Source: Acidobacteriaceae bacterium KBS 83 (GTDB taxonomy: Bacteria > Acidobacteriota > Terriglobia > Terriglobales > Acidobacteriaceae). Taken from it: a stretch of DNA of 64,000 nucleotides. Under the pieces are notes generated by a model. The model was not told where the DNA came from. It did not search any database and saw only the letters and a list, made by a program, of their open reading frames with translations. Shown piece after piece: positions 8,256-59,954 of this stretch; the stretch's first letter is position 1; each line of letters starts with the position of its first letter. The translations under genes and the position numbers were made by a program. The stretch lies in assembly GCA_000381585.1 (NCBI GenBank), contig KB906737.1, forward strand, positions 248,001 to 312,000, given 5' to 3'.

Positions 8256-8774
8256 TCACGCCGGACTGAGCATTCTCCGGCGACGCGCGCGTCGCTTCTC
8301 CGTCTGTACCCATGCGAACAGCGCGATCGCACATGCCGGCAGCACGGCAAAGAACCACACCGTTCCCCGGCGCGCCGAGTAATTCGCCACGATCAGATCA
8401 GTCGCGACGCTCGCCTCGCGACCCCGCTCGCTCACATGGAGTACAGCCCGCCACCGCCCGGCGCGCGGCAACTGCACAACCGCATCCTGCAGCAGCCGGT
8501 TCGCAGCATGCGCATACGACAGCCGCGCGACTAAAGGCGTGGCGCTCGCGTCCTCAGACGTTAGTGTGACGACCACATTCGCGTCCAGCAGAACGCTTCC
8601 CTGCTCCTCCACCATCACGCTCAAGTCGGCCGGACCCACTGCCGGCGACTCAGGTGCAGTGAAGAGTGACACCACGAACGGTCCGGCAGCTTGCCGCATC
8701 TGCAGCCGCCCGCCATCCGCATGCGCTGCCATCGCACAGCACCCAAGCGCGAGGCATGCAAGGAGACGCCTCAC
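8256..8774 (-). CDS. Small exported membrane protein of the respiratory operon (FixH/YtkA-like)
   Basis: 172 residues. The GTG at 8774 overlaps the TGA of the upstream CtaG fusion gene (ATGTGAGG), so the two are translationally coupled. The N-terminus is a signal peptide (RRLLACLALGCCAMAAHA); the middle is a beta-rich extracytoplasmic domain (FVVSLFTAPESPAVGPADLSV); a hydrophobic helix and a basic tail (TEKRRARRRR) end it. The pattern resembles FixH/YtkA-like proteins that accompany oxidase assembly genes. A longer open frame to 9122 is only a shadow of the neighbour. Role in oxidase maturation is inferred from position. Confidence 0.7.
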   Translation of the reverse strand: MRRLLACLALGCCAMAAHADGGRLQMRQAAGPFVVSLFTAPESPAVGPADLSVMVEEQGSVLLDANVVVTLTSEDASATPLVARLSYAHAANRLLQDAVVQLPRAGRWRAVLHVSERGREASVATDLIVANYSARRGTVWFFAVLPACAIALFAWVQTEKRRARRRRMLSPA

Positions 8775-11044
8775 ATCGCCCCCATCATCATGCCGCGCAT
8801 CTGCATCGGCTGGAGCAGCACCCAGAAGCCGAATGCATACAGAACTACGGTAAGCAGCGCCAGTGGCGCGATGGCCAGCGCCCGACGGGTAACCTGCGTA
8901 GCTGCCGCCATCCGCCACAGGAGGTAGAGGGAGAGCAGCAGACCTCCATCGAGGAAGAGGAGCTGCAACTGCAGCAGACCATTCGCGCCGAGCAGCGTCC
9001 GGCTTGTGCCCCAATGCGGCAATCCCATCCAGCGCAGTCCAAAGTCCACTCCCGACTGCTGCACCAGAGGCAGCAACGCCGGTATTCCCATCGCCAGGTG
9101 GAATGTCAGGTGCGCCGCCCACATCCCCATCCCCAGTGGCACCAGAGCCAGCGCACTTCTCACGAATGCCTCACTCCGGGACTCCGCACCGCGAGCGCTC
9201 TGAGAGACAAGCCACACCACCCCCGTCACCACGAGAGTCGCGAAGACCACTCCGGCAAAAATCCCCATCCCCGTCGCCAGCCAGGGCACCTTCCGCGCTG
9301 CAGCCGCCAGAAGCGCCCCCCTGGGCCCCACCATTGCCAGCGCATTCGCAAATCCCGCAAAAACCAACACCAGAGCGGCACAGGCAACGTCGGTTCTGCG
9401 GTGCAGTCGCCCTAGCGATGAAGTGGGCTCTGTCCCCAGCACATCCCGCGTCACGCTGCGCGGCGTGAGAATGATATTGTCGTTCGGGCAAGCCTTCACG
9501 CAATCCATGCACAGGGTGCAGTCCGCATTGCTGCGCTTCTCCGGCAGATAGAGCTCAAGCTCGCAGCCACGCTGCTGTGTGTTGCCTCGGATGCAGTCGT
9601 GCGTCAAACAAGCGGTACAGGTAGATAGACTGCTGATCTGCAAAGTGGTAGGCGAGATCAGTGATCCGACAAAGTTGAATTGTCCAATCGGGCAGACATA
9701 TTTGCAGAAGCTCGCGCCTCGGAAAAGGGAGTCCACTAAAAATGCGGCGCCTGTATAACCAACCAACAACCATGCGGTGCTGGCAGGCTTGTTCCACAGT
9801 GCGAAACGTTCATACCCGAAGAAGAACCCCAGCATCAACCCGACGCCAATCCACTTCACGCGCAGCCACTGCGGCCAGCGAAAGTGGGCCCAGCCAAGAC
9901 GTCGGCCGAGTTCGCGCGGCAGCGTGAAAGGACATGCCATGCAGAAGAGGTTGCCCACAAACAGCAATGCCAGGACCCCGAGCGCGCGCAGAATATTCCA
10001 GGGCAACACTCCCGCCAGGTTCATGGCCGCCATCGGATGCCCGACAAAGCCGTGGACAATAACGACCACCATTACGGCTAAACTCATCGTCTGCAGAAGC
10101 TGACGTCCATAGCGCGCACGAAGGAGTGGACCCAGAACCGGTAAACGCAGCAGGTCGGATGACTGCCCCGCGTTCATCTTTCCCGAAGCCGGCGCACCGC
10201 CGATCGTAACCAGTGCAGACCTGGGCCGGCGCCGCGAAAGCAGCGATAGCGTAACGCCGATCGCGGGCACGAGATAGATAGCTGAACCCACCACCCACAT
10301 GAATGCACCCGCAGCCGCCTGATCCTGCATTGCAGTCAATCCAAACATGCGCGGCGCCATGGCATAGGTGGGATACAAGACACGGTTGGAGAATGCCAGA
10401 AATGCGGAAAGCGCCGTGTTCACCAGGTCAGCGGTGACCAGATACGGCACTACCGCCCAGCGTGACCAGCGCGCGCGGCTCGGCCAGGGCTGAAGCACTG
10501 TCCACCAGAAGAGCAGCGATGTGAAGAAGAAGCAGGCATGCTCTACTTCGTGCCATGCTGGCGAGCGCAGCGCGAGCTCATATGCCGCCGGCACATGCCA
10601 GGCTAAATATGCCACGTTCATCGCGATCCAGCCCGTCGCGGGGTGCGTCATGAACCGCGCAACGCAGTGCACGGTACGCGAACGGAACATCGGTCCGAAT
10701 CCATCGCGCACCCAGCCGCGCGGCAGCCCACGCAGCAGCGGTACCGTGGGCGCGCCCAACAGCAGCAGAGGCGGGGCCACGGACATCAACGTCAGATGTT
10801 GCACCATATGGGCAAGCAGCAGCCAGTTGCCAAGGACATCGAGCGGCGACGCAATGGCCAGCCAGACAGTGACGAGTCCCGCGAAGAAACAAGCTGCGCG
10901 CCACGAGGGCAGTGCAGCCGCTCGGGTCAACTTCGCAACGCGCCAACCTCGGCAGTAGATAATTGCCGTCAACAGCAGCGACAAGGTGCCCCACAGCGGA
11001 ACGCTCCATGAGGCCGCAATCGCGTCTGACAGCTCAGGATTCAC
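8771..11044 (-). CDS. CtaG-polyferredoxin fusion, oxidase assembly membrane protein
   Basis: 757 residues in one uninterrupted frame. Residues 1-275 resemble CtaG (caa3 oxidase assembly factor), multi-pass, with conserved His residues in HMVQHL and HEVEHA. Residues 310-530 form a NapH/CcoG-like membrane ferredoxin: FCMACP (Cys368, Cys371), CKYVCP (447, 451), CTAC (476, 479) and a 4Fe-4S motif CTLCMDCVKACP (509-520). Residues 550-757 add several more helices. The likely job is copper and redox handling during assembly of the oxidase encoded upstream. GTG start with GGAG five bases before it. The fusion is unusual; a missed frameshift is unlikely because the frame is continuous. Confidence 0.82.
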   Translation of the reverse strand: MNPELSDAIAASWSVPLWGTLSLLLTAIIYCRGWRVAKLTRAAALPSWRAACFFAGLVTVWLAIASPLDVLGNWLLLAHMVQHLTLMSVAPPLLLLGAPTVPLLRGLPRGWVRDGFGPMFRSRTVHCVARFMTHPATGWIAMNVAYLAWHVPAAYELALRSPAWHEVEHACFFFTSLLFWWTVLQPWPSRARWSRWAVVPYLVTADLVNTALSAFLAFSNRVLYPTYAMAPRMFGLTAMQDQAAAGAFMWVVGSAIYLVPAIGVTLSLLSRRRPRSALVTIGGAPASGKMNAGQSSDLLRLPVLGPLLRARYGRQLLQTMSLAVMVVVIVHGFVGHPMAAMNLAGVLPWNILRALGVLALLFVGNLFCMACPFTLPRELGRRLGWAHFRWPQWLRVKWIGVGLMLGFFFGYERFALWNKPASTAWLLVGYTGAAFLVDSLFRGASFCKYVCPIGQFNFVGSLISPTTLQISSLSTCTACLTHDCIRGNTQQRGCELELYLPEKRSNADCTLCMDCVKACPNDNIILTPRSVTRDVLGTEPTSSLGRLHRRTDVACAALVLVFAGFANALAMVGPRGALLAAAARKVPWLATGMGIFAGVVFATLVVTGVVWLVSQSARGAESRSEAFVRSALALVPLGMGMWAAHLTFHLAMGIPALLPLVQQSGVDFGLRWMGLPHWGTSRTLLGANGLLQLQLLFLDGGLLLSLYLLWRMAAATQVTRRALAIAPLALLTVVLYAFGFWVLLQPMQMRGMMMGAM

Positions 11045-41522: not shown

Positions 41523-42587
41523 ATGCCCGCAAAAGCAGCTCCTTACGGCCGAGTAACCCAGAAGGCGCCCGCCGTTCCGGAAGTGCACATCTTGTGGATC
41601 ACCGCAGGACTAGGCTGTGACGGCGATTCGGTATCGGTGACCGCAGCCATGCAGCCCAGCATTGAAGATGTTCTGCTGGGCGCGATTCCCGGCCTGCCCA
41701 AGGTGCACCTGCATAACCCGGTGCTCGCCTACGAAGTCGGTGACGACTTCATGAAGTACTTCTACATGGCGGAAGAAGGAAACCTGGAGCCATTCGTTCT
41801 CGTCGTGGAAGGCTCCATCCCAAACGAGAGGATCAAGAAGGAAGGCTACTGGGCAGCCCTGGGTACCAATCCGAATACCGGACAGCCGATCACCACAAAC
41901 GAGTGGATCGATCGTCTTGCTCCCAAGGCCCTCGCAGTCATCTGTGCTGGGACGTGCGCCACGTACGGCGGCATTCACGCGATGGAAGGCAATCCCACCG
42001 GAGCCATGGGACTGGCGGACTATCTCGGCTGGGATTGGAAATCGAAGGCGGGACTGCCGATTGTCAACGTTCCCGGCTGTCCGGTTCAGCCCGACAATTT
42101 TATGGAGACAGTCCTCTATCTCCTCTACCAGGTCGCAGGTCTTGCCCCGATGATCCCGCTGGACGACCAGTTGCGGCCAACCTGGCTCTTTGGCAACACC
42201 GTACATGAAGGCTGCGATCGTGCCGGCTATTACGAGAGCGGCGATTTCGCAACGAGCTACAGCTCCCCGAAGTGCATCGTGAAGCTCGGCTGCTGGGGAC
42301 CTGTAGTGAACTGCAATGTGCCCAAACGCGGCTGGATGGCGGGAATTGGCGGCTGCCCGAATGTCGGCGGCATCTGCATCGGTTGTACCATGCCCGGCTT
42401 TCCCGATAAGTTCATGCCCTTCATGGATGAGCCGCCTGGCGCAAAGCTGTCGAGCACTGCCATAGGCGCCTATGGAATGGCCATCCGCAACCTGCGCAAT
42501 ATGACCAACCGCACCGTCAACAAAGAACCGAAGTGGCGGCATTCCGGCACAAAACTCACGACTGGCTATCAACCCAGAGCCTACTAA
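41523..42587 (+). CDS. hhyS: [NiFe]-hydrogenase small subunit, high-affinity (group 1h) type
   Basis: 354 residues carrying the iron-sulfur relay of an H2-oxidising hydrogenase. It has the group 1h mark of CDGD (Cys32, Asp35) where most hydrogenases have CxxC, followed by GTCATYGG, PGCPVQ, HEGCDR, IVKLGCWGP and GGCPNVGG-ICIGCTMP. There is no Tat signal, so the enzyme should sit on the cytoplasmic side. Such enzymes oxidise H2 at atmospheric levels and feed electrons into the respiratory chain. AGGAG lies upstream of the ATG. First gene of a run continuing to 55820. Confidence 0.95.
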   Translation: MPAKAAPYGRVTQKAPAVPEVHILWITAGLGCDGDSVSVTAAMQPSIEDVLLGAIPGLPKVHLHNPVLAYEVGDDFMKYFYMAEEGNLEPFVLVVEGSIPNERIKKEGYWAALGTNPNTGQPITTNEWIDRLAPKALAVICAGTCATYGGIHAMEGNPTGAMGLADYLGWDWKSKAGLPIVNVPGCPVQPDNFMETVLYLLYQVAGLAPMIPLDDQLRPTWLFGNTVHEGCDRAGYYESGDFATSYSSPKCIVKLGCWGPVVNCNVPKRGWMAGIGGCPNVGGICIGCTMPGFPDKFMPFMDEPPGAKLSSTAIGAYGMAIRNLRNMTNRTVNKEPKWRHSGTKLTTGYQPRAY

Positions 42588-42603: not shown

Positions 42604-44400
42604 ATGGCCACGATCACAACCACATATAAGGAAGAAGAGGTTAGCTCCGGAAACCTGGTGGAGATGAACTGGGACCCGATTACAAGGATCGTGGGCAGCC
42701 TCGGCATCTTCACCAAGATCGACTTCGGCAAGCGCAGAGTTGCAGAGTGTCACAGCACATCCTCGATCTTCCGCGGCTACAGCATATTTATGAAGGGAAA
42801 GGATCCGCGAGACGCGCACTTCATCACCAGCCGTATCTGCGGCATCTGCGGCGATAACCACGCGACCTGCGCTACCTACGCGCAGAACATGGCCTTCGGT
42901 GTGCGGCCACCGACGATGGCCGAGTGGATCGTCAACCTCGGCGAGGCGGCCGAGTACATGTTCGACCACAACATATTTCAAGACAACCTGGTCGGTGTGG
43001 ACTTTTGCGAGCAGATGGTCAAAGAGACCAATCCCGGCGTATGGGCGCAGGCGCAGAAGACCGCTTCGCCCCATGCAAACCTGCACGGGTACAAGACCAT
43101 CGGCGACATCATGACCGCGTTGAATCCGTTTACCGGCACCTTCTATCGCGAGGCTCTGCAGATGAGCCGCATGACGCGCGAGATGTTCTGCCTGATGGAA
43201 GGCCGTCACGTCCACCCATCGACACTCTACCCAGGCGGCGTAGGCACAGTGCCGACAGTCCAGCTGTTCACCGACTATCTCGTCCGCCTCATGAAATATG
43301 TAGAGTTCATGAAGAAAGTCCTTCCGCTGCATGATGATCTCTTCAACTTCTTCTATGAGGCGCTGCCTGGCTATGAACAGGTAGGCCAGCGTCGGATCCT
43401 GCTCGGCTGCTGGGGCTCCTTCAATAATCCCGATGTGTGCGATTACACCTATCAGAAGATGACCGAGTGGGGCCGCGGCATGTACGTCACGCCCGGCGTC
43501 GTAGTGGACGGTGAGTTGGTGACTACCGACCTCGTCGATATCAATCTGAACATCCGCATTCTTCTCGGTAGCTCCTATTACGACGACTGGCAGAGCGCCG
43601 AGACTTTCGTGAAGAAGGATCCGCTGGGAAATCCCGTCGATCAGCGACATCCCTGGAACCAGAGCACCTTCCCCAGGCCACAAAAGCGCAACTTCAAAGA
43701 CAAGTACACCTGGGTCATGTCGCCGCGCTGGTATGACAAACGCACCAAGGATCACCTCGCCCTCGACACGGGCGGAGGCCCGATCGCGCGTCTATGGGCT
43801 ACGGCTCTGGCTGGCATCGTCGACATCGGATACATCAAGGCCACAGGAAAGAGCGTGAAGATCTATCTTCCGAAAACCACTTCCCTGCCTGAGGTCGAAT
43901 TCGAATGGAAGATCCCCAAGTGGAGCAATGCGATTGAGCGCGATCGGGCACGCACATATTTCCAGGCATATGCCGCGGCTGCTGCCCTGCACTTTGTTGA
44001 GCAGGCCTTAGCCGAGTTGCATGCCGGAAGAACCAAAACGTGGAACGACTTCAAAGTGCCGGAGGAAGCTATCGGCTGCGGCTTCCACGAGGCGGTACGC
44101 GGCGTACTGTCGCACCACGTTGTCATTCGCGACCACAAGATCGCCAACTATCATCCGTACCCGCCTACACCATGGAACGCGAATCCTCGCGATATCTACG
44201 GAACACCCGGCCCCTATGAAGACGCGGTGCAGAACACTCCCATCTTCGAGGAAAACGGCCCGGATAAGTTCAAAGGCATCGATATCATGCGCGCAGTCCG
44301 TAGCTTCGATCCCTGCCTGCCATGCGGGGTGCATATGTATCTGGGGAATGGCAAGGTGTTGGAGACCCATCACTCCCCCATGTTTGGTCTGCAGCCCTGA
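42604..44400 (+). CDS. hhyL: [NiFe]-hydrogenase large subunit, high-affinity (group 1h) type
   Basis: 598 residues with the nickel site: L1 motif RICGICGDNHATC (Cys79, Cys82) and L2 motif DPCLPCGVH (Cys571, Cys574). The 21 residues after His577 would be removed by the maturation protease encoded at 47454 once Ni-Fe(CN)2CO is inserted. AAGGAG stands close before the ATG, 16 bp after hhyS. Long antisense open frames across this gene are shadows. Catalyses H2 splitting. Confidence 0.96.
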   Translation: MATITTTYKEEEVSSGNLVEMNWDPITRIVGSLGIFTKIDFGKRRVAECHSTSSIFRGYSIFMKGKDPRDAHFITSRICGICGDNHATCATYAQNMAFGVRPPTMAEWIVNLGEAAEYMFDHNIFQDNLVGVDFCEQMVKETNPGVWAQAQKTASPHANLHGYKTIGDIMTALNPFTGTFYREALQMSRMTREMFCLMEGRHVHPSTLYPGGVGTVPTVQLFTDYLVRLMKYVEFMKKVLPLHDDLFNFFYEALPGYEQVGQRRILLGCWGSFNNPDVCDYTYQKMTEWGRGMYVTPGVVVDGELVTTDLVDINLNIRILLGSSYYDDWQSAETFVKKDPLGNPVDQRHPWNQSTFPRPQKRNFKDKYTWVMSPRWYDKRTKDHLALDTGGGPIARLWATALAGIVDIGYIKATGKSVKIYLPKTTSLPEVEFEWKIPKWSNAIERDRARTYFQAYAAAAALHFVEQALAELHAGRTKTWNDFKVPEEAIGCGFHEAVRGVLSHHVVIRDHKIANYHPYPPTPWNANPRDIYGTPGPYEDAVQNTPIFEENGPDKFKGIDIMRAVRSFDPCLPCGVHMYLGNGKVLETHHSPMFGLQP

Positions 44401-44448: not shown

Positions 44449-45045
44449 GTGGCAAATGCAACTGAATTCCAGCAACGAGTCCAGCAGCTTGGCAAGCTGA
44501 TCGCTGAACTCGAACAGATGCCGGACAGCCCACTGAAAGTGGCAACCGGTGAATTGGTCCAGCTGTTGATGGAGGTGCACGGCACTGGGATTGAACGAAT
44601 GATGGAGATCGTCTTCGATTCCCACGGTACAGGCGCGGAGACGATCGAGAAGCTGGGGAACGACGCCATCGTTCGTAGCTTGCTTCTTCTCTATTCTCTG
44701 CATCCGGAAAATCTGGAGACGCGTGTGCACAAGTCGCTGGATGCCCTCCGCCCGCGACTTCGCAAGCTCAATTACACGATTGAGTTCATCAGCGTCGAAG
44801 ACGGCGCGGTGCGCTTACAAATCGAATCGTCGGGCCATGCCTGCGGTAGCACAACGGAAAACGTCCGCCGCATGGTAGAGGAGGTCGTCTACGAATATGC
44901 GCCTGACGTCACATCGCTGGCCATCCTGGGTCTCGAGGACCGTCCATCGTCCGGTTTCGTCGCACTTGGAAGCCTAACGGCGCCTTCCATCGCGCACACC
45001 GTGCAGCCTACTTCACACGCCGTCACGGTGGGAGGCGCCGATTGA
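44449..45045 (+). CDS. NifU C-terminal-like protein with a reduced cysteine motif
   Basis: 198 residues. Residues 1-95 are helical (QRVQQLGKLIAELEQMPD, then LLLLYSLHPENLETRV); the rest resembles the NifU C-terminal scaffold. Where that family has a CxxC, this protein has only HACGST, one cysteine and two residues fewer. It may help load or carry clusters for HhyS, or act as a structural adaptor. GTG start with AAAAGGAG eight bases upstream. A similar gene occurs next to group 1h hydrogenases in other phyla, as I recall. Confidence 0.75.
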   Translation: MANATEFQQRVQQLGKLIAELEQMPDSPLKVATGELVQLLMEVHGTGIERMMEIVFDSHGTGAETIEKLGNDAIVRSLLLLYSLHPENLETRVHKSLDALRPRLRKLNYTIEFISVEDGAVRLQIESSGHACGSTTENVRRMVEEVVYEYAPDVTSLAILGLEDRPSSGFVALGSLTAPSIAHTVQPTSHAVTVGGAD

Positions 45046-45078: not shown

Positions 45079-45750
45079 ATGCCGAATGAGCAGCTATCAG
45101 GAATGGAACAGGCATTCGGCGCCTTGCGTCAGTTCACTCGTGCGCGCCGCGCCTCCGCAGAGCCACTCGAGCGTTGCGAGTTTTGCAGCGCCGGTCTGAG
45201 CCATGAGCATCCCCACCTAGTGGAGCTTGCCACTCGAACCATAATTTGCGCGTGCGATCCATGCGCACTCCTCTTCGACAATGCCGCCACAGGCAAGTAC
45301 AAGCGCGTCAGTCGACGCGCGCTGCGCCTGGCCGACTTTGAGATGACCGATGCACAGTGGGACGGGTTGCTGATTCCAATCAACATGGCCTTCTTCTTCC
45401 GCTCCAGCCGGGAGAATCGGGTCGTCGCTCTCTATCCCAGCCCGGCAGGTGCAGTGGAATCTCTGCTCCCGATGGAGGCGTGGCAGGAAATCGAGAAATC
45501 CCATCTCCAGCTATTACAAATGAAGCCGGACATCGAGGCTCTGTTGGTCAATCGAGTGGGACATGCCCGCGGTGTAGCGAAGGCCGAGTACTACATCGCG
45601 CCCATGGATGATTGCTACCGCCTTGTAGGCGAGATCCGCATGCATTGGAAGGGCCTTTCCGGTGGCGCTGAAGTTTGGACCGAGATTGGCAGATTCTTCT
45701 CAGAGCTTCGCGCAAGGGCGGAAGTCGTCGGCGGAGTGCGGCATGCCTGA
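45079..45750 (+). CDS. DUF5947-like protein with a cysteine-rich metal-site motif
   Basis: 223 residues. Near the N-terminus five cysteines, CEFC (33-36) and CACDPC (57-62), could hold a zinc or a rubredoxin-like iron. The rest is an alpha/beta domain (DGLLIPINMAFFFRSS, VALYPSPAGAVESL, YRLVGEIRMHWKGLSGG). It resembles the family labelled DUF5947 found in hydrogenase clusters (recalled, not searched). Possibly an electron carrier or assembly factor for HhySL. Its stop overlaps the next start. Confidence 0.75.
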   Translation: MPNEQLSGMEQAFGALRQFTRARRASAEPLERCEFCSAGLSHEHPHLVELATRTIICACDPCALLFDNAATGKYKRVSRRALRLADFEMTDAQWDGLLIPINMAFFFRSSRENRVVALYPSPAGAVESLLPMEAWQEIEKSHLQLLQMKPDIEALLVNRVGHARGVAKAEYYIAPMDDCYRLVGEIRMHWKGLSGGAEVWTEIGRFFSELRARAEVVGGVRHA

Positions 45751-46399
45751 ACTCAGCTTCAAGATCGAGCAGGCGACGGTGCTGCCATTCGCTGTATCAC
45801 CGACCATTGCATTTCAGCTCTACGTTGCAAACGCCGTCGATGGCCAGGCCATTCACACCGTCGCGTTGAACTGCCAGATCCAGATTGAAGTGACGCGCCG
45901 GCGCTACACTCCCGATGAACAGCAGCAGATGCTCGATCTTTTTGGCGAGCCCGACCGTTGGAGCCAGACACTACATAACCTACTGTGGACGAGCGTCAGT
46001 GTCATCATTCCCGGCTTCAAAGGCAGCACGCACACCGATATTCGCGTGCCTTGCACATTTGATTTCAATGTCGCCGCGACGAAATATTTCTACGGGCTTG
46101 TCGGCGGCGAAGTGCCGCTGATCATGCTATTCAGCGGAACTGTCTTTTATGCGGATTCCGATGGGTCTTTGCAGGTAGCGCCTATCTCCTGGGACCAGGA
46201 GACAAAATTCAGGCTGCCGGTGCAGGTGTGGCGGGACATGATGGATGCCTACTACCCCAACGGTGCATGGCTCCACGTACGGCGCGATATATTCGACAGG
46301 CTCTACCGGCTCAAGATGCAACGCGGCATCCCCACCTGGGAGCAGGCGCTCGAGCACATCCTTCCTTGCGAGGAAATGGAAGAGACGGTGCAATCGTGA
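45743..46399 (+). CDS. DUF6084-like hydrogenase-cluster protein
   Basis: 218 residues, beta-rich first half (LSFKIEQATVLPFAVSPTIAF), then LLWTSVSVIIPGFKGST and a C-terminal part with WRDMMDAYYPNGAWLHV. No metal or nucleotide motif. It resembles proteins labelled DUF6084 in hydrogenase operons. ATG 45743 overlaps the preceding stop and has GGAG eight bases upstream; longer frames upstream are read-through. Function unknown; retained with DUF5947-like protein, which suggests they act together. Confidence 0.72.
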   Translation: MPELSFKIEQATVLPFAVSPTIAFQLYVANAVDGQAIHTVALNCQIQIEVTRRRYTPDEQQQMLDLFGEPDRWSQTLHNLLWTSVSVIIPGFKGSTHTDIRVPCTFDFNVAATKYFYGLVGGEVPLIMLFSGTVFYADSDGSLQVAPISWDQETKFRLPVQVWRDMMDAYYPNGAWLHVRRDIFDRLYRLKMQRGIPTWEQALEHILPCEEMEETVQS

Positions 46400-47457
46400 A
46401 CCTGGACCGCGTGGAGAAGATCGCCGAGGCAATTCTGTACGAGGGATACATGTTGTATCCGTATCGCCCGTCTTCTATGAAGAATCAGCAACGTTGGAAC
46501 TTTGGCGTGCTCTGCCCGCCTTCTTACTGCGAGCAGCAGCGCGGAACCGAACGTGACCTCATGCAGACCGAAGTCCTCGTAATCGGCGACTCTGGCGCCA
46601 AGATCACAATAAAAGTCCGCTTCCTGCAGATCATCCGGCGATCCATCGGCAAACTTCGCGCCCCAGTAACCTCCCTTCCACTTGATACCAATCCCGTGTT
46701 CGATTATGTGGACAAGCTGGAAGCAGGCAGCCGTGTCTACCGGCCATGGCAAGAGGCCGTAGAGCGCGAGATTGTCTGCGAAGAATTCCAGTTGGTAGAT
46801 CTTGGCATACCAAGGCTTCTTCCGATCGATTTTCCAGCACACCCGGAAGCCGAAGCTGTGCGCGACGAGACCGGCGATGTGATCGGCATGATCGTTCGCA
46901 GGTGGGAGCATCTAGCAGGATCCATTGTCATCAGCGCCGACAGAGCGCGCGACAATATCTTCAAGGTTCGAGTGTTGCTACGCAATGACTCGCACTTTCC
47001 TGCGCTGGCCGAAGCACCCCGCGAAGAGGCGGTGCTCTTTTCACTGGTCTCGGCTCACATTGTCCTGGGCGTGGAGAATGGCGAGTTTCTCTCCTTGCTC
47101 GAACCTCCCGCAGAGTTTGAGGCGATGGCAGCTGAGTGCAAAAACATCGGGACCTGGCCGGTGCTGGTCGGTGGGCAGAACACGCGTCAGGCCATGCTGT
47201 CCTCACCCATCATCCTCTACGACTATCCTCAGATTGCGCCGGAGAGCCCAGGCAGCCTCTTCGACGGCACAGAGATCGACGAGATCCTGTCGCTTCGCAT
47301 CATGACCCTCACCGACCAGGAGAAGCACGAAATACGCCAATCGGATGACCGTGCCCGCGAAATTCTCGATCGCACGGAACAGCTTCCAGAAGAGCAGTTC
47401 ATGAAGCTCCACGGCATTCTCCGGAGTCTGCAGCCTGTCAGAGAGGAGTTGCAATGA
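46396..47457 (+). CDS. Uncharacterised hydrogenase-cluster protein
   Basis: 353 residues from a GTG that overlaps the previous stop (CGTGA). I do not recognise a named family. Visible pieces: YEGYMLYPYRPSSMKNQQRW at the start, a beta-rich middle (VRFLQIIRR, GSIVISADRA, FKVRVLLRNDS), AEAPREEAVLFSLVSAHIVL, a conserved-looking YDYPQIAPESPGSLFDGTEI, and a helical tail with LTDQEKHEIRQSDDRAREIL. Position between DUF6084-like and protease genes, with overlaps on both sides, makes an accessory role in group 1h assembly likely. Confidence 0.75.
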   Translation: MNLDRVEKIAEAILYEGYMLYPYRPSSMKNQQRWNFGVLCPPSYCEQQRGTERDLMQTEVLVIGDSGAKITIKVRFLQIIRRSIGKLRAPVTSLPLDTNPVFDYVDKLEAGSRVYRPWQEAVEREIVCEEFQLVDLGIPRLLPIDFPAHPEAEAVRDETGDVIGMIVRRWEHLAGSIVISADRARDNIFKVRVLLRNDSHFPALAEAPREEAVLFSLVSAHIVLGVENGEFLSLLEPPAEFEAMAAECKNIGTWPVLVGGQNTRQAMLSSPIILYDYPQIAPESPGSLFDGTEIDEILSLRIMTLTDQEKHEIRQSDDRAREILDRTEQLPEEQFMKLHGILRSLQPVREELQ

Positions 47458-48311
47458 GAGAGTGGGAGTGGCAGCTCCTGGAAGACAAGGCGATGCTCGA
47501 CCATATCGAGATCTCCGGCGTAACCGTGAGCGCAGGTGATCGCGTTCGTCTGTGTCCGCACGACGGCGGCGACATTCTGGACATCGCACTCCGGGGGCAG
47601 GTCGCCACCATCGAAGGCATTGAGGAGGATTACGAGGGCAAGCGCCACGTATGCGTCGTCCTCGACGAGGATCCTGGTCGCGATCTTGGTCTCATGCGCC
47701 AACCCGGTCATCGCTTCTTCTTCGATCCGGCCGAAATTGAGCCGCTTCCCGCCGGCCTGGAACCAGAGCAGACTCATCGGACCAAAGCCCGTGTATTGAT
47801 CGCCGGCATCGGAAACATCTTTCTCGGAGACGACGCATTCGGAGTGGAAGTGGCACGGCGTCTGGCGGACTGTGAGTTACCAAACGAAGTGCGCGTAGTG
47901 GACTTCGGCATTAGAGGGCTCGACCTCGTTTACGCGCTCCAGGACGGCTACGACACCACAATCCTGATCGATGCCTTCCCGCATGGAAAACATCCCGGCA
48001 CCGTTTCCATCGTCGAGCCCTGCTTGAACGATCTCGACGTTGGCTCCGATGAGAGCGGATGTGTCGAGCCCCACGGAATGCATCCGATGAATGTGCTGCG
48101 CATGGCAAAGGCTATGCAGGCGCCTCTCGAACACATCCTGCTCATTGGTTGCGAGCCGGCTTACCTGGGCGGTGACGACGGCCATATGGGATTGAGTGAG
48201 AGCGTGGAGGCAGCAGTTGGCGAAGCAGTAAACACAACGCGAACTCTGGTGAACCAGATTCTGAATGGCGGCTGGCCACAACTCCAGTCTCAAATAGAGG
48301 TTCGCAAATAA
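47454..48311 (+). CDS. Hydrogenase maturation protease with N-terminal extension
   Basis: 285 residues. Residues 113-275 are a HyaD/HybD-type endopeptidase (VLIAGIGNIFLGDD, DFGIRGLDL, LIDAFPHG, HGMHPMNVL); Asp127, Asp173 and the His in the last motif match the nickel-sensing residues. It clips the HhyL C-terminus after nickel insertion. Residues 1-100 form a separate small beta domain (GDRVRLCPHDGGDI, VCVVLDEDPGRD, GHRFFFDPAEIEPL), not part of normal proteases and perhaps a docking module for HhyL. ATG overlaps the previous stop (ATGA). Confidence 0.88.
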   Translation: MREWEWQLLEDKAMLDHIEISGVTVSAGDRVRLCPHDGGDILDIALRGQVATIEGIEEDYEGKRHVCVVLDEDPGRDLGLMRQPGHRFFFDPAEIEPLPAGLEPEQTHRTKARVLIAGIGNIFLGDDAFGVEVARRLADCELPNEVRVVDFGIRGLDLVYALQDGYDTTILIDAFPHGKHPGTVSIVEPCLNDLDVGSDESGCVEPHGMHPMNVLRMAKAMQAPLEHILLIGCEPAYLGGDDGHMGLSESVEAAVGEAVNTTRTLVNQILNGGWPQLQSQIEVRK

Positions 48312-50920: not shown

Positions 50921-52111
50921 ATGCTTATGGAAACGGCCTACTCACTCGCGGAACAGATCGAAACGCGGCTCCTGCTGCGCCACGAGATCTTCGAGCACTA
51001 CTTTTCTGCCGAGGCTCGACCTCTTGCCGAGGCATGCCGCGAGATGTCCGAGCGGTTTCTGCGCGGCGGCCGTCTGCTCGCGTTGGGCCGGGGTCCTTAC
51101 GCTACCGACGCGCAACACGTCTCAGTGGAATTTGTCCATCCGGTGATCGTTGGCAAACGGGCGTTGCCGGCGCTCGATCTCTCTCTGCTGATGCAGCCGT
51201 GGCTTGACGCAATCGTACGGCCCGACGATATGGTCATGGGCTTCGGTCCCCCCGAAGGAGACCCGGAGGTCTGGTCTGCTTTGCAATCCGCACAAAATCA
51301 CGGAGCCATGACCTTCGCTTTACCGGGACCATCAGGTCGCTATGCACTCAAGGCGGCGACGCAGGATGCCTTCATGCATCAGGAGTTGATAGAGATTTTG
51401 TGTCACACGCTTTGGGAGACAGTGCACGTCTTCTTTGAACACCGGGAGCTCGGTCAGGACATTGGACACACCGAGTTTCTCTACCCCTTCCTGGGGAAGC
51501 AGAAGCAGGAAACATCTGCTGTCGTGGATGATGTCGCTGCCTCCATCCAGATGAAAGTGCACGATGACAAGCTACTGCGCACGCGCCTGGCAAGAGAGGA
51601 GTCCGAAGTGATGGCGGGCGCAGCCCTCGATATGCATAGCCGATTGCGGAACGGCGGCAAGCTGATTCTCCTCGGCAACGGCGGTTCCGCCACCGACGCC
51701 AACGATTGGGCAATCGATTGCGTCATGCCTCCGGCCGGATATCATCCGATTCCGGCAATCTCCCTCGCAATGGAGCCCGCCACCATCACCGCAATGGCGA
51801 ACGACGTTGGTATCGAAGTGATCTTCCTGCGTCAGATGCTCGCGCAGGCTCAGCCCAACGACGTGATCATCGCCATCTCAACAAGCGGCGGATCACGCAA
51901 CGTTGTCGCGGCGATGGAGGAAGCACGCAAGCGCAACCTGATGACGGTGGCCTTACTCGGCAATGATGGCGGAGAGATATACCGGCGTGGACTCGCCAAC
52001 CATCCCATCATCGTCCGCAGCGACTATATCCCGCGCATTCAAGAGGTGCAGGCATCGGCCTATCACGTACTGCGAGATACATTGGAGGTGCTACACAATG
52101 GCCACGCTTGA
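50921..52111 (+). CDS. Double-SIS-domain protein inside the hyp operon
   Basis: 396 residues with two sugar-isomerase (SIS) folds. The C-terminal one is GmhA-like and well conserved (GGKLILLGNGGSATDAND, VIIAISTSGGSRNVV, VALLGNDGGEIYRRG); the N-terminal one is degenerate (GGRLLALGRGPYATDAQH and a loop without the Ser-rich phosphate site). GmhA proteins isomerise sedoheptulose-7-phosphate, but no heptose genes are near. Lying between hypE and hypF, 15 bp after the former, it may bind a phosphorylated ligand during hydrogenase maturation or regulation. The following gene overlaps it. Confidence 0.85.
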   Translation: MLMETAYSLAEQIETRLLLRHEIFEHYFSAEARPLAEACREMSERFLRGGRLLALGRGPYATDAQHVSVEFVHPVIVGKRALPALDLSLLMQPWLDAIVRPDDMVMGFGPPEGDPEVWSALQSAQNHGAMTFALPGPSGRYALKAATQDAFMHQELIEILCHTLWETVHVFFEHRELGQDIGHTEFLYPFLGKQKQETSAVVDDVAASIQMKVHDDKLLRTRLAREESEVMAGAALDMHSRLRNGGKLILLGNGGSATDANDWAIDCVMPPAGYHPIPAISLAMEPATITAMANDVGIEVIFLRQMLAQAQPNDVIIAISTSGGSRNVVAAMEEARKRNLMTVALLGNDGGEIYRRGLANHPIIVRSDYIPRIQEVQASAYHVLRDTLEVLHNGHA

Positions 52112-52334
52112 GCTCTACGGAAGCTCCCATTGCCCACATACGCGGGAGTTGCGCGAGTGGCTGGAGTGGACGCGGCGCGACTTTCAGGAATACGACGTCG
52201 AGGCCGATCCCGAAGCGCGTGCCCGCATGCAGGCCCTCGACAGCACCGTCCGTACGGTGCCCGTGCTGGTCGAAGAAGGCAAGATAATCCAGGTTGGCTG
52301 GCAGGGCCGCGGCTGCATCCTGGGGCCGGAATAG
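52098..52334 (+). CDS. Small glutaredoxin-like protein (UXX-star type)
   Basis: 78 residues. The thioredoxin-like start LELYGSSHCPHTRELREWL places a single redox cysteine in CPHT, as in the UXX-star (seleno)protein group; here the codon is TGC, so no selenocysteine. VRTVPVLVEEGKIIQVGWQG supplies the cis-Pro loop. GGAGG lies nine bases before ATG 52098, which is inside the end of the SIS gene; a longer frame from 51963 is read-through. It may reduce or guard a thiol on a maturation factor such as HypE or HypF. Easily overlooked because of its size. Confidence 0.8.
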   Translation: MATLELYGSSHCPHTRELREWLEWTRRDFQEYDVEADPEARARMQALDSTVRTVPVLVEEGKIIQVGWQGRGCILGPE

Positions 52335-54634: not shown

Positions 54635-54971
54635 GCTATCAATCGCGATGAGTATCGTCGACATGGCACAGGAGGAGGCGGAACGTCGCAAAGTGCAGGT
54701 GGACGCGGTCCATCTTGACTTGGGCGCACTCTCCGGCGTGGTGAAGGAAGCGCTGCTCTTCTCCTATGGGGTAGCCTGTGACGGAACGCTCCTCGAAGGC
54801 TCTCGCCTGGTCGTCACGGATGTCCCCATCGAGGTCTTCTGTTCAGTCTGCAAGGTGCCGCGGACCCTCAAATCCATGCAGTGGTTTTGCTGCCCCGAGT
54901 GTGGAGCAGCAACATCTGAGATCCTCCATGGGAAAGAGCTGGTCATCACCGCTCTGGAGCTGAAGCAATGA
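54627..54971 (+). CDS. hypA: Nickel metallochaperone HypA
   Basis: 114 residues. MHELSIA gives the nickel ligand His2; a zinc site is formed by CSVC (72-75) and CPEC (89-92). It delivers nickel to HhyL with HypB. The start overlaps hypF by 8 bp and the stop overlaps hypB (ATGA), so hypF-hypA-hypB are coupled. Confidence 0.95.
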   Translation: MHELSIAMSIVDMAQEEAERRKVQVDAVHLDLGALSGVVKEALLFSYGVACDGTLLEGSRLVVTDVPIEVFCSVCKVPRTLKSMQWFCCPECGAATSEILHGKELVITALELKQ

Positions 54972-55693
54972 CAACTGAGCCTCGCCTGCTGGCAGTCCGC
55001 AAGAATGTGCTGAAACAAAACGATGTCCTGGCCCGCGCATTGAGAGATCGCTTTCGTGCGCAGGGCACATCGGTGATCAGCCTTGTTTCGAGCCCGGGCA
55101 CCGGCAAAACCGCCCTTCTGGAGCGCACGCTCACCCTGCTGAAGGAAAACTATCGAGTGGCTGCGCTTGTCGGTGATCTCGCCACTGAAAATGACGCTCT
55201 CCGCCTCGCTCGGAGCGGTGTTCCCGTGAAGCAGATCACTACGGGCACGATCTGTCATCTCGAAGCAGCGATGGTGGAACGGGCTTTAGAAGAATGGAGT
55301 ATCGGTCCGCTTGATCTGCTCTTTATCGAGAATGTCGGGAACCTGGTATGCCCCGCCTCCTATGACTTGGGCGAGGACCTTCGTCTGGTGCTGCTCTCAG
55401 TCACTGAAGGCGAAGATAAGCCGCTCAAATATCCCACCATCTTCAACAGTGCCGACGCCGCGGTCATCACCAAGTGTGATTTAGCGGTGGCCGTGGATTT
55501 TGACGAGGTGACAGCTTTGGCCAACATCCAGGCTGTGCGTCCCGGAATGCCGGCATTTCTGGTCTCATCCAAAACCGGCCAGGGCCTAAGTAATTATTTG
55601 CAATTTCTTACCGCGACACTTCACGCAAAACTTCACGTCCCTGCAGATGAAGCTTCCTCGCACGCAGAGATACACTCAGGTACATCCAGGTAA
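54968..55693 (+). CDS. hypB: Nickel-inserting GTPase HypB
   Basis: 241 residues: P-loop SSPGTGKTALLE, GDLATENDA, the inter-subunit metal site in GTICHLEA, and TKCDLAVAVDFD as the guanine-specificity region. The N-terminal CxxCGC nickel motif and the His-rich stretch seen in some HypB proteins are absent, so it is the short form without nickel storage. Uses GTP hydrolysis to help HypA release nickel. Confidence 0.95.
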   Translation: MTTEPRLLAVRKNVLKQNDVLARALRDRFRAQGTSVISLVSSPGTGKTALLERTLTLLKENYRVAALVGDLATENDALRLARSGVPVKQITTGTICHLEAAMVERALEEWSIGPLDLLFIENVGNLVCPASYDLGEDLRLVLLSVTEGEDKPLKYPTIFNSADAAVITKCDLAVAVDFDEVTALANIQAVRPGMPAFLVSSKTGQGLSNYLQFLTATLHAKLHVPADEASSHAEIHSGTSR

Positions 55694-55718
55694 CCGCATC
55701 GCTACGAGGTAATTCGCC

Positions 55719-55820
55719 ATGATGAAGCTGATCTTTCTTGCCGCCGGAATCGCAGTCGCAGTCCTTACGGTTTCAATTGCTCCCGATCTCACCCGCTACA
55801 TACGAATCCGATCGATGTGA
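55719..55820 (+). CDS. 33-residue membrane microprotein after hypB (DUF6893-like)
   Basis: MMKLIFLAAGIAVAVLTVS forms one hydrophobic helix; the tail is APDLTRYIRIRSM. GAGGT lies eight bases before the first ATG, good for a real gene. A short helix followed by PDxxRYxRIRSM matches the tiny proteins labelled DUF6893, which I recall next to hydrogenase genes in actinobacteria. Lying 25 bp after hypB at the end of the island, it may anchor the cytosolic HhySL to the membrane or its quinone partner. The function is unproven. Too short for normal gene calling. Confidence 0.75.
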   Translation: MMKLIFLAAGIAVAVLTVSIAPDLTRYIRIRSM

Positions 55821-55857
55821 GAGCTCTGCAGTTTCAAGTGAGCCAGCTCTAAGTTTT
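55820..55857 (+). terminator. Weak candidate terminator after the hydrogenase operon
   Basis: AGAGCT (55820-55825) can pair with AGCTCT (55845-55850) across a 19-base loop, followed by AAGTTTT. Short stem and large loop make it doubtful, but it is the only candidate between the microprotein and the convergent TonB receptor. Confidence 0.3.
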
Positions 55858-56017
55858 CGCCGCTTTCATAAGCAGAGCGCGGAACCAAGTGGTGATATGT
55901 GCGCCCAGGTCGCCGCTGTGGTTAGGCGATCACGATCGTCTGCTGCCGCCATCCAGCTTGGTCTAATCGTGGTCGGCCCGATTCTGCCACTACATATCTT
56001 CTTGATTCCAAATGAAA

Positions 56018-56041
56018 CGAGGAGAGCCGAAGCTCTCCTCG
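56018..56041 (-). terminator. Intrinsic terminator of the TonB receptor gene
   Basis: A perfect 10-bp stem (CGAGGAGAGC/GCTCTCCTCG) 18 bp past the receptor stop. On the minus strand the loop is TTCG, an exceptionally stable tetraloop, and TTTCATTT follows: a good intrinsic terminator for that gene. It would also block transcripts coming from the hydrogenase side. Confidence 0.8.
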
Positions 56042-56058
56042 CTGTGAATCGTTTGCGT

Positions 56059-59000
56059 TTAGAACTGCAGGCGGACTGAGAACTGCAGTTGCCGGGTCGG
56101 GAACTGGCTCCCGAACAGGCCACCGATGGTCTGATCGCCGTTGTCGATCGAACCGCCCGGGTTGCTCAGACTCATGTGGTTGAAGACGTTGTACGCATCC
56201 ATACGGAACTGCGCGAAGAGCGACTCATGAATCGGGAAGTTCTTCTGCACAGCCAGGTCGGTGTTGAAGAAGTTCGGGCCATATGTGCTGTTTCTGCCGG
56301 TATTGCCGATCTCATCCAACCCGGGAGCCGTGAAGCCTTGGAATGGCTGTTGCGTCAGAGGTACAGTAGCGCCATGGAAGGCCAACCGATTATGGTTCGT
56401 TGTATTCAGTCCTTGGATGTGAAGCTTTAGGTTGTTGCCGCGCCCGTTCGGATAGCAAGGTGGGCCGTTTCCCGGAATCGCGGTGCTGCACTCCTGATAA
56501 GTAAGGGTGAAGGGCGTCCCGCTCGCATACGTCAGTACCGGGCTGATCTGCCACCCGCCGATGATCTGGTTACCCCACCCCGAAACATTGGACCCAAACT
56601 GCTTATTGCGTCCGAATGGCAACTCATAGCTACCGTATGCCACGATCTCCTGCTCGCGGTTGGAATCATCGCGGCCTACTCCAGGCTGTTTGTTCCAGGT
56701 AGCATAGCCCGACGCCTCGTTTATCGAGCGCTGCCATGCATAGTTGGCATTGAATGTCAGACCCTTGGTGAATTGCTTCGCGACACTGACCTGCAGGGCA
56801 TTGAAGTGCGTGTTCATGTCGGCCGAGCGGTACTGTATGCCTTGACTCCAACCGCAGGCTCCCGCGGGAAGCCCTGCAATGTCTGGCCGCTTGTAGTTGG
56901 GATCGCTGCACGCAAGCAGTTTGCCGCCGTAATAACGCTGCAGCAGCGTCGAGTTATTGGTTCCGTTGTCGGGGTAGATGCCCAGCGCGTCTGGCACCGC
57001 AGAGCCTTCTGCCGCTTGGGTCGTGTAGTGCAGTTCCTGGCCGTTAATGCTGAACTGCGCCGGCAGGAAAATGGCAGACTCGTTCGGGTTGTTCGTGTTG
57101 CTGACAGCACCGCCCAGCGTATGCGTCCCCTTGTTGCCCACGTAAGCCATCGTTACCGAAAGCGTGGGCGTGATCGACCGCTGAAGGCTCAGGTTCCATG
57201 CATCGATGGTTGGCAGACGGAGCGGATTGGGACGGGCTATCGAATTGACTGTGCTGCCAGGATTCGGCAACAGCCCGCTGGCAGGAACCGGGGTCACTGC
57301 AATCGCTGGCGGACCACTCGCGAGAGTGAAGGCAGACGTGCTGGAGGTGGGGCCGTTCGGCTCAACAAGCGACTGGTTTGTGAGAATCGGCAGGTTCTGC
57401 GTCGCCGAATGGCCGAAGATTGAGCCGAAGATGCCCAGATCGAAGCTGCGTCCATATCCCGAGCGGATCACCGTCTTTGGGTTCAGCTGATAAGCAACAC
57501 CGATACGCGGCGTAATTGCTTTATAGGTCGGGCTGAACCCCATGTTGCTGCCGAACTTTCCGTACTCCGCGACCTGCAAATAGCCGGTCGTGTCGTTCGG
57601 GTTCTCCATATCAATCAGCGCGCCATTGCCCTTCCCGTTCACCGTTTCGGGGTAGTACAGCTCATATCGAACACCCAGATTCAAGGTCAGGTTCGGTGTG
57701 AAGCGCCAGGTATCCTGCACATAGAAGAAAAACCTCTTCTGGAACTCTTTTGCGTTGGTTGAGGTGCTTCCATAGCGGCCAAACGTGGACACGTCTCCGA
57801 GAACGAAGGTCGCAAAGCCCAGGCCGCCGACACCTTGGTTGGCTGTCGGTCCGGTGCCGAACCGAAGTTCGCCCGCCCGGTTTACGTCGCTCGGGACGCG
57901 CAGATTGCGCGCATACCGAAGATCAGCGCCGAACTTAACGGAGTGGTTGCCCAGGATCTTCGTCCAGTTGTTAACGACCTGGAACTGATCCTCCTTCTGT
58001 GTCACCGGGCAGTTGCAGCGGTTGATATTGAGGCCGCTGCCGTACTGTGGACCAACGTTGGACCCGTTGGTCGGATCGCCGGTCGAACCAACCTCTGTCA
58101 GGTTGAAGGCCGAGGCCCCGCTGGTAAATCCGGAATCCAGGTTTAGCCCCGGGATGCCCAGATCCTTCGAAAATGAGCTGCCCTGGTCATATTTGCTGGT
58201 AAGGATGTCAAAGCGGTAATAGCCAAGACGGAAGTCTGTCAGCAGTGTGGCGTTCACCGCCATGTCCGCACCACCCGCAAAGCTGTCGTTGGCGCCGGTC
58301 GATGAACCACCGTAGCCCTGGAGACCGAAGCCCGTGCCGCCGGCTGCTCCAAAGATCGTCCCACCGGTCAGCGTATCCGTGAAGCGACTGAATCGGCCAA
58401 AGGCGTGAATCTTCTGCGTCACCTGCATGTCCCCGCGCGCATCCCACTGATCGGCGTTGAAGAGGCCCGTGCCGCTGGCCGAGTAGTTTGAAGCAATGCC
58501 CGTATTTCCCTGGGCTCCACTTGGAGCCGTTGTTGGCGCATAGGGCTGCAGCAGTTTGAAAAGATTCAGCGCTTGCGGAGAAAGACGCGCCGTGGGGATG
58601 ACGTTATTCGGAAACTGCTTTCCGGTCAGCGGATCGTAAATAAGAGGATTGTTGGGGCCACCTGCCAGTTGTGTCGCATATTGGCTGAAGTCGCAACCCG
58701 GGATACCGCTCGGGCCAATCTGTGCACCCAGGCAGGTGTCCATCAGCAATTTCGTTGGCACAGTTTGCGTACCCGAAATGCCCGCTCTCTGCCGCTGCCC
58801 CTGATAGTCACCGAAGAAGAAGAGTCGATCTTTTATGGCCGGACCGCCGATCGACCCGCCAAACTCGTTGTAGAGACCGCCTGGAAATTTGGACTCGGGA
58901 GGCTGCGAAAAAGGATTGCGCGCCAGATTCGCATTGCTCCGGCGATAGTCGAAGGCGCTGCCGTGGAAGTTGTTGGTGCCCGACTTGGTCTGCGCCGTTA

Positions 59001-59730
59001 CCACCGCAGACACAGCCTTGCCGAACTCAGCGTCGAAATTTTGCGTTGCGATCTTCGACTCGGTGACCGCGTCGAGCGCCGGATTCACAACGATGATGCC
59101 AAGAATCGGATCCTGATTGTCGGTGCCGTCAAGTTCAAACGCGGTACCACCGAAAGCCTGGCCATCGATCTGGATCTGTTGGCTCGCCTGCGGGTTCTCG
59201 TCGGCTGCGTGGCCCCAACCCAACTGCTGTGCGCCAGGAAGGAGCAACTGCAGGCTGGTAAAGTTACGCCCGGCGACCGGCAAATCCGAAACTGTCTTCT
59301 GGTCGAATGTAGTGGACACATCCGCGCGATCCGTCTTCAGCTGCGGAATGGCATCGGCGTTGACGTTCACCGTCTCGCTCGCCCCGCCGGTCTGCATGGC
59401 TGCGTCTACCTTCGGCGACGTGTCAGCCAGCACCTGCAAATGGTTTGTCTCAAAGCTCTTGAAGCCGGTCATCTCCACCTTGACGGTGTAGAGATCCGGA
59501 ATCAGGTGTTCGATCGTATAGCCGCCCGAATCGTTGGTTTTCTCGGTGACGGAGGTGCCCTTCGACTCATCTGTGACTGTCACGGTTGCACCAGGGATGG
59601 CTGCACCTGATACATCGGTCACTGTTCCATAAACTGAACCGTAGACCGCCTGTGCGCGTACCGTATGCGGAAGAAAGGCTATCCCAATACCAAGGCAAGC
59701 GGTTAGGACCGCCTGTGCGCGTCTTGTCAT
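56059..59730 (-). CDS. Oar-like TonB-dependent receptor with carboxypeptidase-regulatory domain
   Basis: 1223 residues. A signal peptide (VLTACLGIGIAFLPHTVRAQ) is followed by a carboxypeptidase-regulatory-like beta domain (VYGTVTDVSGAAIPGATVTVTDE), a plug-like segment and a long beta-barrel ending in LQFSVRLQF, with the aromatic C-terminus typical of outer-membrane barrels. This Oar-like class is abundant in Acidobacteriota and probably imports oligomers or takes part in surface adhesion. GGGAG lies seven bases before ATG 59730. A TTCG-capped terminator follows. Divergent from the CRTAC1 gene at 59955. Confidence 0.92.
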   Translation of the reverse strand: MTRRAQAVLTACLGIGIAFLPHTVRAQAVYGSVYGTVTDVSGAAIPGATVTVTDESKGTSVTEKTNDSGGYTIEHLIPDLYTVKVEMTGFKSFETNHLQVLADTSPKVDAAMQTGGASETVNVNADAIPQLKTDRADVSTTFDQKTVSDLPVAGRNFTSLQLLLPGAQQLGWGHAADENPQASQQIQIDGQAFGGTAFELDGTDNQDPILGIIVVNPALDAVTESKIATQNFDAEFGKAVSAVVTAQTKSGTNNFHGSAFDYRRSNANLARNPFSQPPESKFPGGLYNEFGGSIGGPAIKDRLFFFGDYQGQRQRAGISGTQTVPTKLLMDTCLGAQIGPSGIPGCDFSQYATQLAGGPNNPLIYDPLTGKQFPNNVIPTARLSPQALNLFKLLQPYAPTTAPSGAQGNTGIASNYSASGTGLFNADQWDARGDMQVTQKIHAFGRFSRFTDTLTGGTIFGAAGGTGFGLQGYGGSSTGANDSFAGGADMAVNATLLTDFRLGYYRFDILTSKYDQGSSFSKDLGIPGLNLDSGFTSGASAFNLTEVGSTGDPTNGSNVGPQYGSGLNINRCNCPVTQKEDQFQVVNNWTKILGNHSVKFGADLRYARNLRVPSDVNRAGELRFGTGPTANQGVGGLGFATFVLGDVSTFGRYGSTSTNAKEFQKRFFFYVQDTWRFTPNLTLNLGVRYELYYPETVNGKGNGALIDMENPNDTTGYLQVAEYGKFGSNMGFSPTYKAITPRIGVAYQLNPKTVIRSGYGRSFDLGIFGSIFGHSATQNLPILTNQSLVEPNGPTSSTSAFTLASGPPAIAVTPVPASGLLPNPGSTVNSIARPNPLRLPTIDAWNLSLQRSITPTLSVTMAYVGNKGTHTLGGAVSNTNNPNESAIFLPAQFSINGQELHYTTQAAEGSAVPDALGIYPDNGTNNSTLLQRYYGGKLLACSDPNYKRPDIAGLPAGACGWSQGIQYRSADMNTHFNALQVSVAKQFTKGLTFNANYAWQRSINEASGYATWNKQPGVGRDDSNREQEIVAYGSYELPFGRNKQFGSNVSGWGNQIIGGWQISPVLTYASGTPFTLTYQECSTAIPGNGPPCYPNGRGNNLKLHIQGLNTTNHNRLAFHGATVPLTQQPFQGFTAPGLDEIGNTGRNSTYGPNFFNTDLAVQKNFPIHESLFAQFRMDAYNVFNHMSLSNPGGSIDNGDQTIGGLFGSQFPTRQLQFSVRLQF

Positions 59731-59954
59731 AATGGTCTCCCTGAAAATGCTGCGTTGGCGCCCTGCCATGCCCTCTGCAATCTGCATCAGCAGTTATGCG
59801 TTTGCTACCGGGTTGTTGTAATCGGCGGTACTGCTTCGTTCTCGTTCAAAAGGATGATTACTTCCCGGCGTCGAACTATAAAGAGCGACCAATATCGGTG
59901 TCAAAAGAAAAAAGCGGCGATCGCGTCCGCCTCGTTTCACTACAATCGAACGCG
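59731..59954. promoter_or_regulatory. Divergent intergenic region TonB receptor / CRTAC1
   Basis: 224 bp between start codons that must drive both genes. An open frame from 59796 joins the CRTAC1 gene but lacks a signal peptide or family-like sequence, so it is treated as leader. No clear operator seen. Confidence 0.35.

Follow-up and report, generated by a model that had tools for sequence, protein, structure and literature searches.

A conserved DUF6893 membrane microprotein tied to group 1h [NiFe] hydrogenase loci, a candidate membrane tether

Background

Group 1h [NiFe] hydrogenases are regarded as a main biological sink of atmospheric H2. The catalytic subunits (HhySL) are membrane-associated although they carry neither a membrane helix nor a signal peptide, their membrane partner has been described as 'currently unknown', and the association seems essential to high affinity (PMC7174314). 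In M. smegmatis the accessory protein HhyE is required (PMC6883350). The window, a stretch of 64,000 nucleotides from Acidobacteriaceae bacterium KBS 83 (contig KB906737.1, positions 248,001 to 312,000), contains a group 1h hydrogenase island that ends with an open reading frame (ORF) of only 33 codons, which a preliminary description had read as a membrane microprotein.

Methods

Eighty named loci were fetched with an HhyL alignment, and a profile built from nine seed sequences was run on their stop-to-stop frames, with matches in most loci. A dedicated model was built from these loci because Pfam PF21833 under-counts divergent copies, many of which score below its cut-off. Loci were scored using a second-round profile and a tail pattern combined with hydropathy, and negatives were inspected by eye; three divergent positives (L074, L097, and L178) were accepted by eye. 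A locus was considered testable when its contig extended over the stretch that follows the protease gene. In 4.06 Mb of control sequence shuffled by a first-order Markov model, neither criterion gave a match.

The hydrogenase island

The island genes all lie in one direction, on the forward strand, in the order hhyS, hhyL, NifU-domain gene, DUF5947, DUF6084, a hypothetical gene, protease gene, hypC, hypD, hypE, a SIS-domain gene, a thioredoxin-like ORF, hypF, hypA, hypB, and finally the microprotein gene. The small subunit gene hhyS (41523..42587) encodes a protein with no signal peptide or transmembrane helix seen, and the large subunit gene hhyL (42604..44400) encodes both group 1h motifs, TSRICGICGDNH and SFDPCLPCGVH. 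The window HhyL is 82.6% identical to the large subunit of C. necator H16, and its sole close solved structure is 5aa5. The NifU-domain protein (44449..45045) resembles HhyE in position and domain (cf. PMC6883350), and is followed by the DUF5947 protein (45079..45750), the DUF6084 protein (45743..46399), a conserved hypothetical protein with no Pfam match and an uncertain start (46453..47457), and a maturation protease of the HycI family (47454..48311). Between the SIS-domain gene and hypF lies a short ORF resembling thioredoxin or glutaredoxin (52094-52330, forward strand; ATLELYGSSHCPHTRELREWLEW...), which is also kept in the sister genome G001 and in other Acidobacteriaceae. The hypB gene (54968..55693), with a CobW/HypB/UreG nucleotide-binding domain, is the co-directional upstream neighbour of the microprotein gene, and a TonB-dependent-receptor-like ORF on the reverse strand (56059-59787) converges on it from downstream. 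A search of 55400-56100 gave neither promoter-like nor intrinsic-terminator-like sites.

By crude hydropathy only, the highest 19-residue Kyte-Doolittle means of HhyS and HhyL were 1.37 and 1.25; together with the published account (PMC7174314), these values bear out the earlier statement that HhySL lacks an anchor of its own. The microprotein was the sole membrane protein predicted by hydropathy among the 16 island products, and the same was true among 15 products in C. necator.

The microprotein and its gene

The ORF (55719..55820, forward strand) encodes 33 residues, MMKLIFLAAGIAVAVLTVSIAPDLTRYIRIRSM, and the stop codon of hypB precedes it by 25 nt. The Shine-Dalgarno sequence noted in the preliminary description was located as GAGG at 55706..55709, 9 nt 5' of the ATG. 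A second in-frame ATG at 55722 would give a protein of 32 residues. The single hydrophobic helix described earlier was likewise recovered, as one stretch with a mean Kyte-Doolittle value of 2.41 over 19 residues (transmembrane helix at about residues 4-22) followed by a basic 11-residue tail; the conserved and putatively cytoplasmic segment, PDLTRYIRIRSM, covers residues 22-33 and ends in RYxxIxxM. The AlphaFold2 model was a single helix over residues 2-32 (pLDDT 92) and says little beyond that.

The microprotein matched Pfam PF21833 (DUF6893) with 39.3 bits (E = 6.6e-10), above the gathering cut-off of 24.6 bits, and over the full length of the model (positions 1-32 of 32, corresponding to residues 2-33). 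It was the only DUF6893 match at E <= 0.01 in its own 6.25 Mb genome; a second match in this genome (G000:C9, E 0.6) was dismissed as a chance frame. Copies from C. necator, where the ORF lies at 66753-66854 of pHG1, and from Actinobacteria also match PF21833. Nothing sets the window protein apart from the family, for which Pfam states no function. No NCBIfam model matched the microprotein, and the only PDB match to the microprotein profile, PscE (E 0.38), is weak and looks like chance. No paper naming DUF6893 was found among 5.39 million in a literature search that left preprints and most subscription papers outside its range, no report on the DUF6893 microprotein was found in the literature on hydrogenase microproteins and Hhy structure, and the Hhy papers checked for a small subunit mentioned none. 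DUF6893 is already catalogued as a sequence family; its tie to group 1h hydrogenases and atmospheric H2 oxidation is apparently unreported and appears to be new.

The tail that had looked conserved in the window sequence proved to be so across the family, with the consensus PD[IL]xRY[LI][RK]IRxM. Among the 62 sequences of the second profile, which were selected by similarity so that the counts lean towards conservation, and for which the profile did not demand a terminal Met before the stop, the eighth residue from the end was R in 62, the seventh from the end was Y in 61, and the last was M in 62. The protein is typically 33-40 residues long (median 36), and Shine-Dalgarno-like sites precede nearly all copies. 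In 14 close pairs compared over the last 33 codons, pooled pN was 0.122 and pooled pS 0.414, and seven pairs were individually significant (p < 0.005); the microprotein is under purifying selection. A length of 33 codons might by itself suggest a chance open frame behind hypB rather than a gene, but with the above-cut-off Pfam match, homologues across phyla, pN below pS, Shine-Dalgarno-like sites, and the absence of any match in the shuffled control, the likelihood of this explanation is negligible. The ORF is a genuine coding gene, and its earlier reading as a 33-residue microprotein with one hydrophobic helix was borne out.

Acidobacteriaceae also have a long form of 65-80 residues, in which an acidic N-terminus is followed by a helix and then by two RRYL-like segments. 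The last of these is the conserved tail, and the arrangement resembles a tail duplication behind the helix. The long form was located at about 15.5-16.3 kb in six loci (L054, L055, L057, L059, L060, and L063) and at 18181-18492 in L034. Short and long copies lie in tandem in L072 and L075, and two tandem copies are present in L111.

Association with group 1h hydrogenases

A search for similar ORFs in related clusters had been set beforehand as a test that could refute the microprotein, and its outcome was strongly positive, as an ORF ending in RYxxIxxM was found in group 1h loci across phyla. Of 93 testable group 1h loci, drawn from seven phyla, 79 had a copy and 14 had no recognisable one. 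In Mycobacteriaceae, 38 of 40 loci were positive.

The comparison with other hydrogenases was made in two sets of genomes. Among 150 acidobacterial relatives, 44 encoded a [NiFe] hydrogenase-family large subunit of some kind, 15 a group 1h HhyL, and 13 a DUF6893 match, the latter two sets having 11 genomes in common. DUF6893 was thus present in 11 of 15 genomes with HhyL versus none of the 29 whose [NiFe] hydrogenases all belong to other groups (Fisher p = 1.8e-7). One match outside the group 1h genomes belonged to an incomplete genome (G037) in which the contig carries hypE to hypB, and another (G035) was rejected as spurious because it lay inside a 470-aa frame. Among 347 actinobacterial genomes, in which HhyL of at least 65% identity was counted as group 1h, above-cut-off matches occurred in 25 of the 36 that encode group 1h HhyL and in 6 of the other 311 (p = 4e-24, the genomes not being independent). 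In the credible exceptions (G304, G330, G335, G355, and G399) the microprotein gene adjoins the hydrogenase protease or hyp genes, and the match in G359 was discarded since it fell inside a 795-aa frame. No microprotein was found in 11 stretches around hydrogenases 37-46% identical to the query (L173, L186, L197-L204). When 72,556 plasmids were searched by tblastn with the window protein, only two matches were obtained at E <= 10; twelve of the plasmids encode a group 1h large subunit, and both matches fall on members of this set, at a distance of 4-6 kb downstream from the large-subunit gene. The microprotein gene is tied exclusively to group 1h loci.

The expectation that so short a gene would be missed by annotation was confirmed in all five annotated plasmid records examined, none of which annotates it. 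In four loci, RefSeq labels HhyS as 'hydrogenase expression protein HypE' (L045, 7878-8939; L046, 12908-13963; L047, 12911-13990; L048, 8902-9957), and the microprotein beside each mislabelled HhyS is unannotated.

Two further kinds of loci were observed. L050, L177, L179, and L180 represent a Streptomyces-type group 1h lineage, of which S. cattleyicolor pSCATT is one member. Its gene order is rearranged, and it is without DUF6084 and without a recognisable microprotein; these enzymes may use another membrane route or be soluble. The locus L167 of G304 (8431-9400) has an intact microprotein ORF before the protease gene, only a 47-codon hhyS-like stretch, and no detected hhyL, and is probably a decaying group 1h locus.

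Gene position and a possible role in maturation

The preliminary description had the microprotein closing the hydrogenase island. This holds for the window, where a convergent ORF lies beyond it, and is otherwise the exception, the usual site being directly after the protease gene: of 89 copies, 74 have the protease as upstream neighbour and seven have the hypothetical protein that is encoded immediately ahead of the protease. A position after hypB was seen only in the window genome and in G001. In several Acidobacteriaceae the copy behind the protease gene is of the long form, and a short form is located elsewhere.

This arrangement allows a different role, in which the microprotein would be a membrane-bound assembly or maturation factor: it would recruit the protease, the hyp proteins, or the immature enzyme without being part of the working complex. 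Besides the 74 copies directly after the protease gene, most others lie just before it, and all 79 positive loci also have the protease. G304 keeps the gene beside the protease and hyp genes though only an hhyS-like fragment was found there, and in one Methylocystis metagenome-assembled genome (L095, 14813-15607) protease and microprotein share one open frame, which is either a fusion or a sequence error. However, [NiFe] hydrogenases of other groups manage without the microprotein although their proteases and hyp genes are homologous, and adjacency to the protease has been lost in the probable Methylacidiphilum genomes, where the gene lies before hhyS, in the genus of the window, where it follows hypB, and in several Acidobacteriaceae. 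A maturation role is unlikely. The link with group 1h survives these changes of position, which speaks for a function and against hitch-hiking.

The microprotein might instead be merely co-expressed with the hydrogenase and have a regulatory or a proton- or gas-related task, which would agree with the second copies that G007 and G116 (both Acidobacteriaceae) carry away from the hydrogenase genes. Among the acidobacterial relatives, however, unlinked copies occur only in genomes with group 1h genes, apart from the incomplete G037 with its hyp genes, and the strict restriction to group 1h and the invariant, putatively cytoplasmic tail argue for a direct role; mere co-expression is very improbable.

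Accessory proteins and the Methylacidiphilum-like loci

A group 1h enzyme was also found in two genomes of Verrucomicrobiota (2,476,671 and 2,202,032 bases), which we take to be, probably, those of M. fumariolicum SolV and M. kamchatkense Kam1. In the larger genome the stretch immediately 5' of hhyS encodes MKLWRYLFLILFAWVIVAIVIPSFPGFVRYLRIRQM, preceded by a strong Shine-Dalgarno sequence, and the smaller has a matching stretch in the same place. DUF6084, the hypothetical protein, and the protease were detected in these genomes, while HhyE and DUF5947 were not; hhyE is reported as absent from Methylacidiphilum (PMC6688271), and the assignment draws on this and on the genome sizes. The hypothetical membrane proteins MfumV2_0985-6 of SolV were considered as the microprotein and this was not borne out, as in the larger genome the microprotein lies upstream of hhyS and the proteins near hypB are larger small membrane proteins.

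HhyE, an iron-sulfur protein with a NifU domain, has been proposed to link HhySL to the respiratory chain (PMC6883350). It shares its operon with the microprotein; it differs in being soluble-looking, and it was not detected in the probable Methylacidiphilum genomes, which do carry the microprotein. HhyE is for this reason unlikely to be the only partner of the microprotein.

DUF6084 and the microprotein tend to occur together. DUF6084 was detected in 76 of 79 microprotein-positive versus 6 of 14 negative loci (Fisher p = 4e-6), a test that overstates independence because loci are related, with four of the eight double-negative loci (L050, L177, L179, and L180) looking like one clade. It is also kept with the microprotein in the probable Methylacidiphilum genomes from which HhyE and DUF5947 appear to be missing. 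The correlation, confounded as it is by shared ancestry, suggests DUF6084 as a partner of the microprotein. The tail might then anchor DUF6084 instead of HhySL, with DUF5947, HhyE, or the hypothetical protein, as a module that carries electrons or shapes the complex, which would suit the beta-sandwich predicted for DUF6084; L110, however, has the microprotein without detected DUF6084, and such an adaptor is improbable. The model of the window DUF6084 (45743-46399, forward strand; pLDDT 89) is a two-layer beta-sandwich with C-terminal helices, and a Foldseek search with it gave only beta-sandwich matches of low TM-score (ApaG and LEA-like, TM 0.25-0.37), with no functional clue.

A candidate membrane tether

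A single helix, a basic and near-invariant tail that is predicted to be cytoplasmic, and presence with nearly every group 1h enzyme together point to a tether or docking subunit. The earlier suggestion, that a microprotein could dock HhySL to the membrane or to a quinone-reactive partner, is supported in part. The preferred reading, with a probability of roughly 0.6, is that the microprotein is a dedicated tether or adaptor in N-out/C-in orientation whose tail docks the Hhy complex. The helix would cross the membrane so that the N-terminus faces outwards and the C-terminus faces the cytoplasm, an orientation suggested by charge and consistent with the long forms, in which the N-termini have a net charge of -1 to -4 and the tails are basic. 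The C-terminal peptide, PD[IL]xRY[LI][RK]IRxM-COOH, would then dock the Hhy complex (HhySL, probably with accessory proteins) on the cytoplasmic face, and docking would allow electrons from H2 to reach the membrane quinone pool. The topology, the docking, the subunit bound, and any effect on electron transfer or H2 affinity are all inferred. A bolder version, in which the tail docks beside the terminal iron-sulfur cluster and completes a quinone-reduction site, so that a protein of about 33 residues would provide anchor, quinone access, and high apparent H2 affinity at once, is rather improbable.

Known systems offer partial parallels to such a tether. The cytochrome b hydrogenase anchor is a multi-helix haem protein serving Tat-exported enzymes. 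In the group 1 membrane-bound hydrogenases it fills the role sought here, namely membrane anchoring and passage of electrons to quinone (PMC6883350); the microprotein, with 33 residues, one helix, and no histidine, shows neither the multiple helices nor the haem histidines of such an anchor. HucM, the membrane-associated stalk of Huc, a group 2a hydrogenase from Mycobacterium smegmatis (PMC10017518), is likewise non-catalytic and connects a high-affinity enzyme of the cytoplasm with the quinone pool, so that the analogy is functional; with 188-189 residues, HucM builds a tetrameric scaffold and a hydrophobic tube, it is part of a different hydrogenase group, and no sequence resemblance to the microprotein was noted. 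Small subunits of respiratory complexes, of the CydX type, are similar in size, single helix, and place at the operon edge, with no homology claimed. CydX of cytochrome bd has about 30-40 residues and one membrane helix, and its gene, at the edge of the operon, is often missed in annotation. In the microprotein, unlike CydX-type subunits, the conserved part is the tail and not the helix.

Conclusions

Because the microprotein is too short for routine annotation, it may be absent from the constructs used for overproduction and from structural work on these enzymes. A conserved, unannotated membrane microprotein encoded near nearly every group 1h hydrogenase is a concrete candidate for the missing membrane link of this enzyme.
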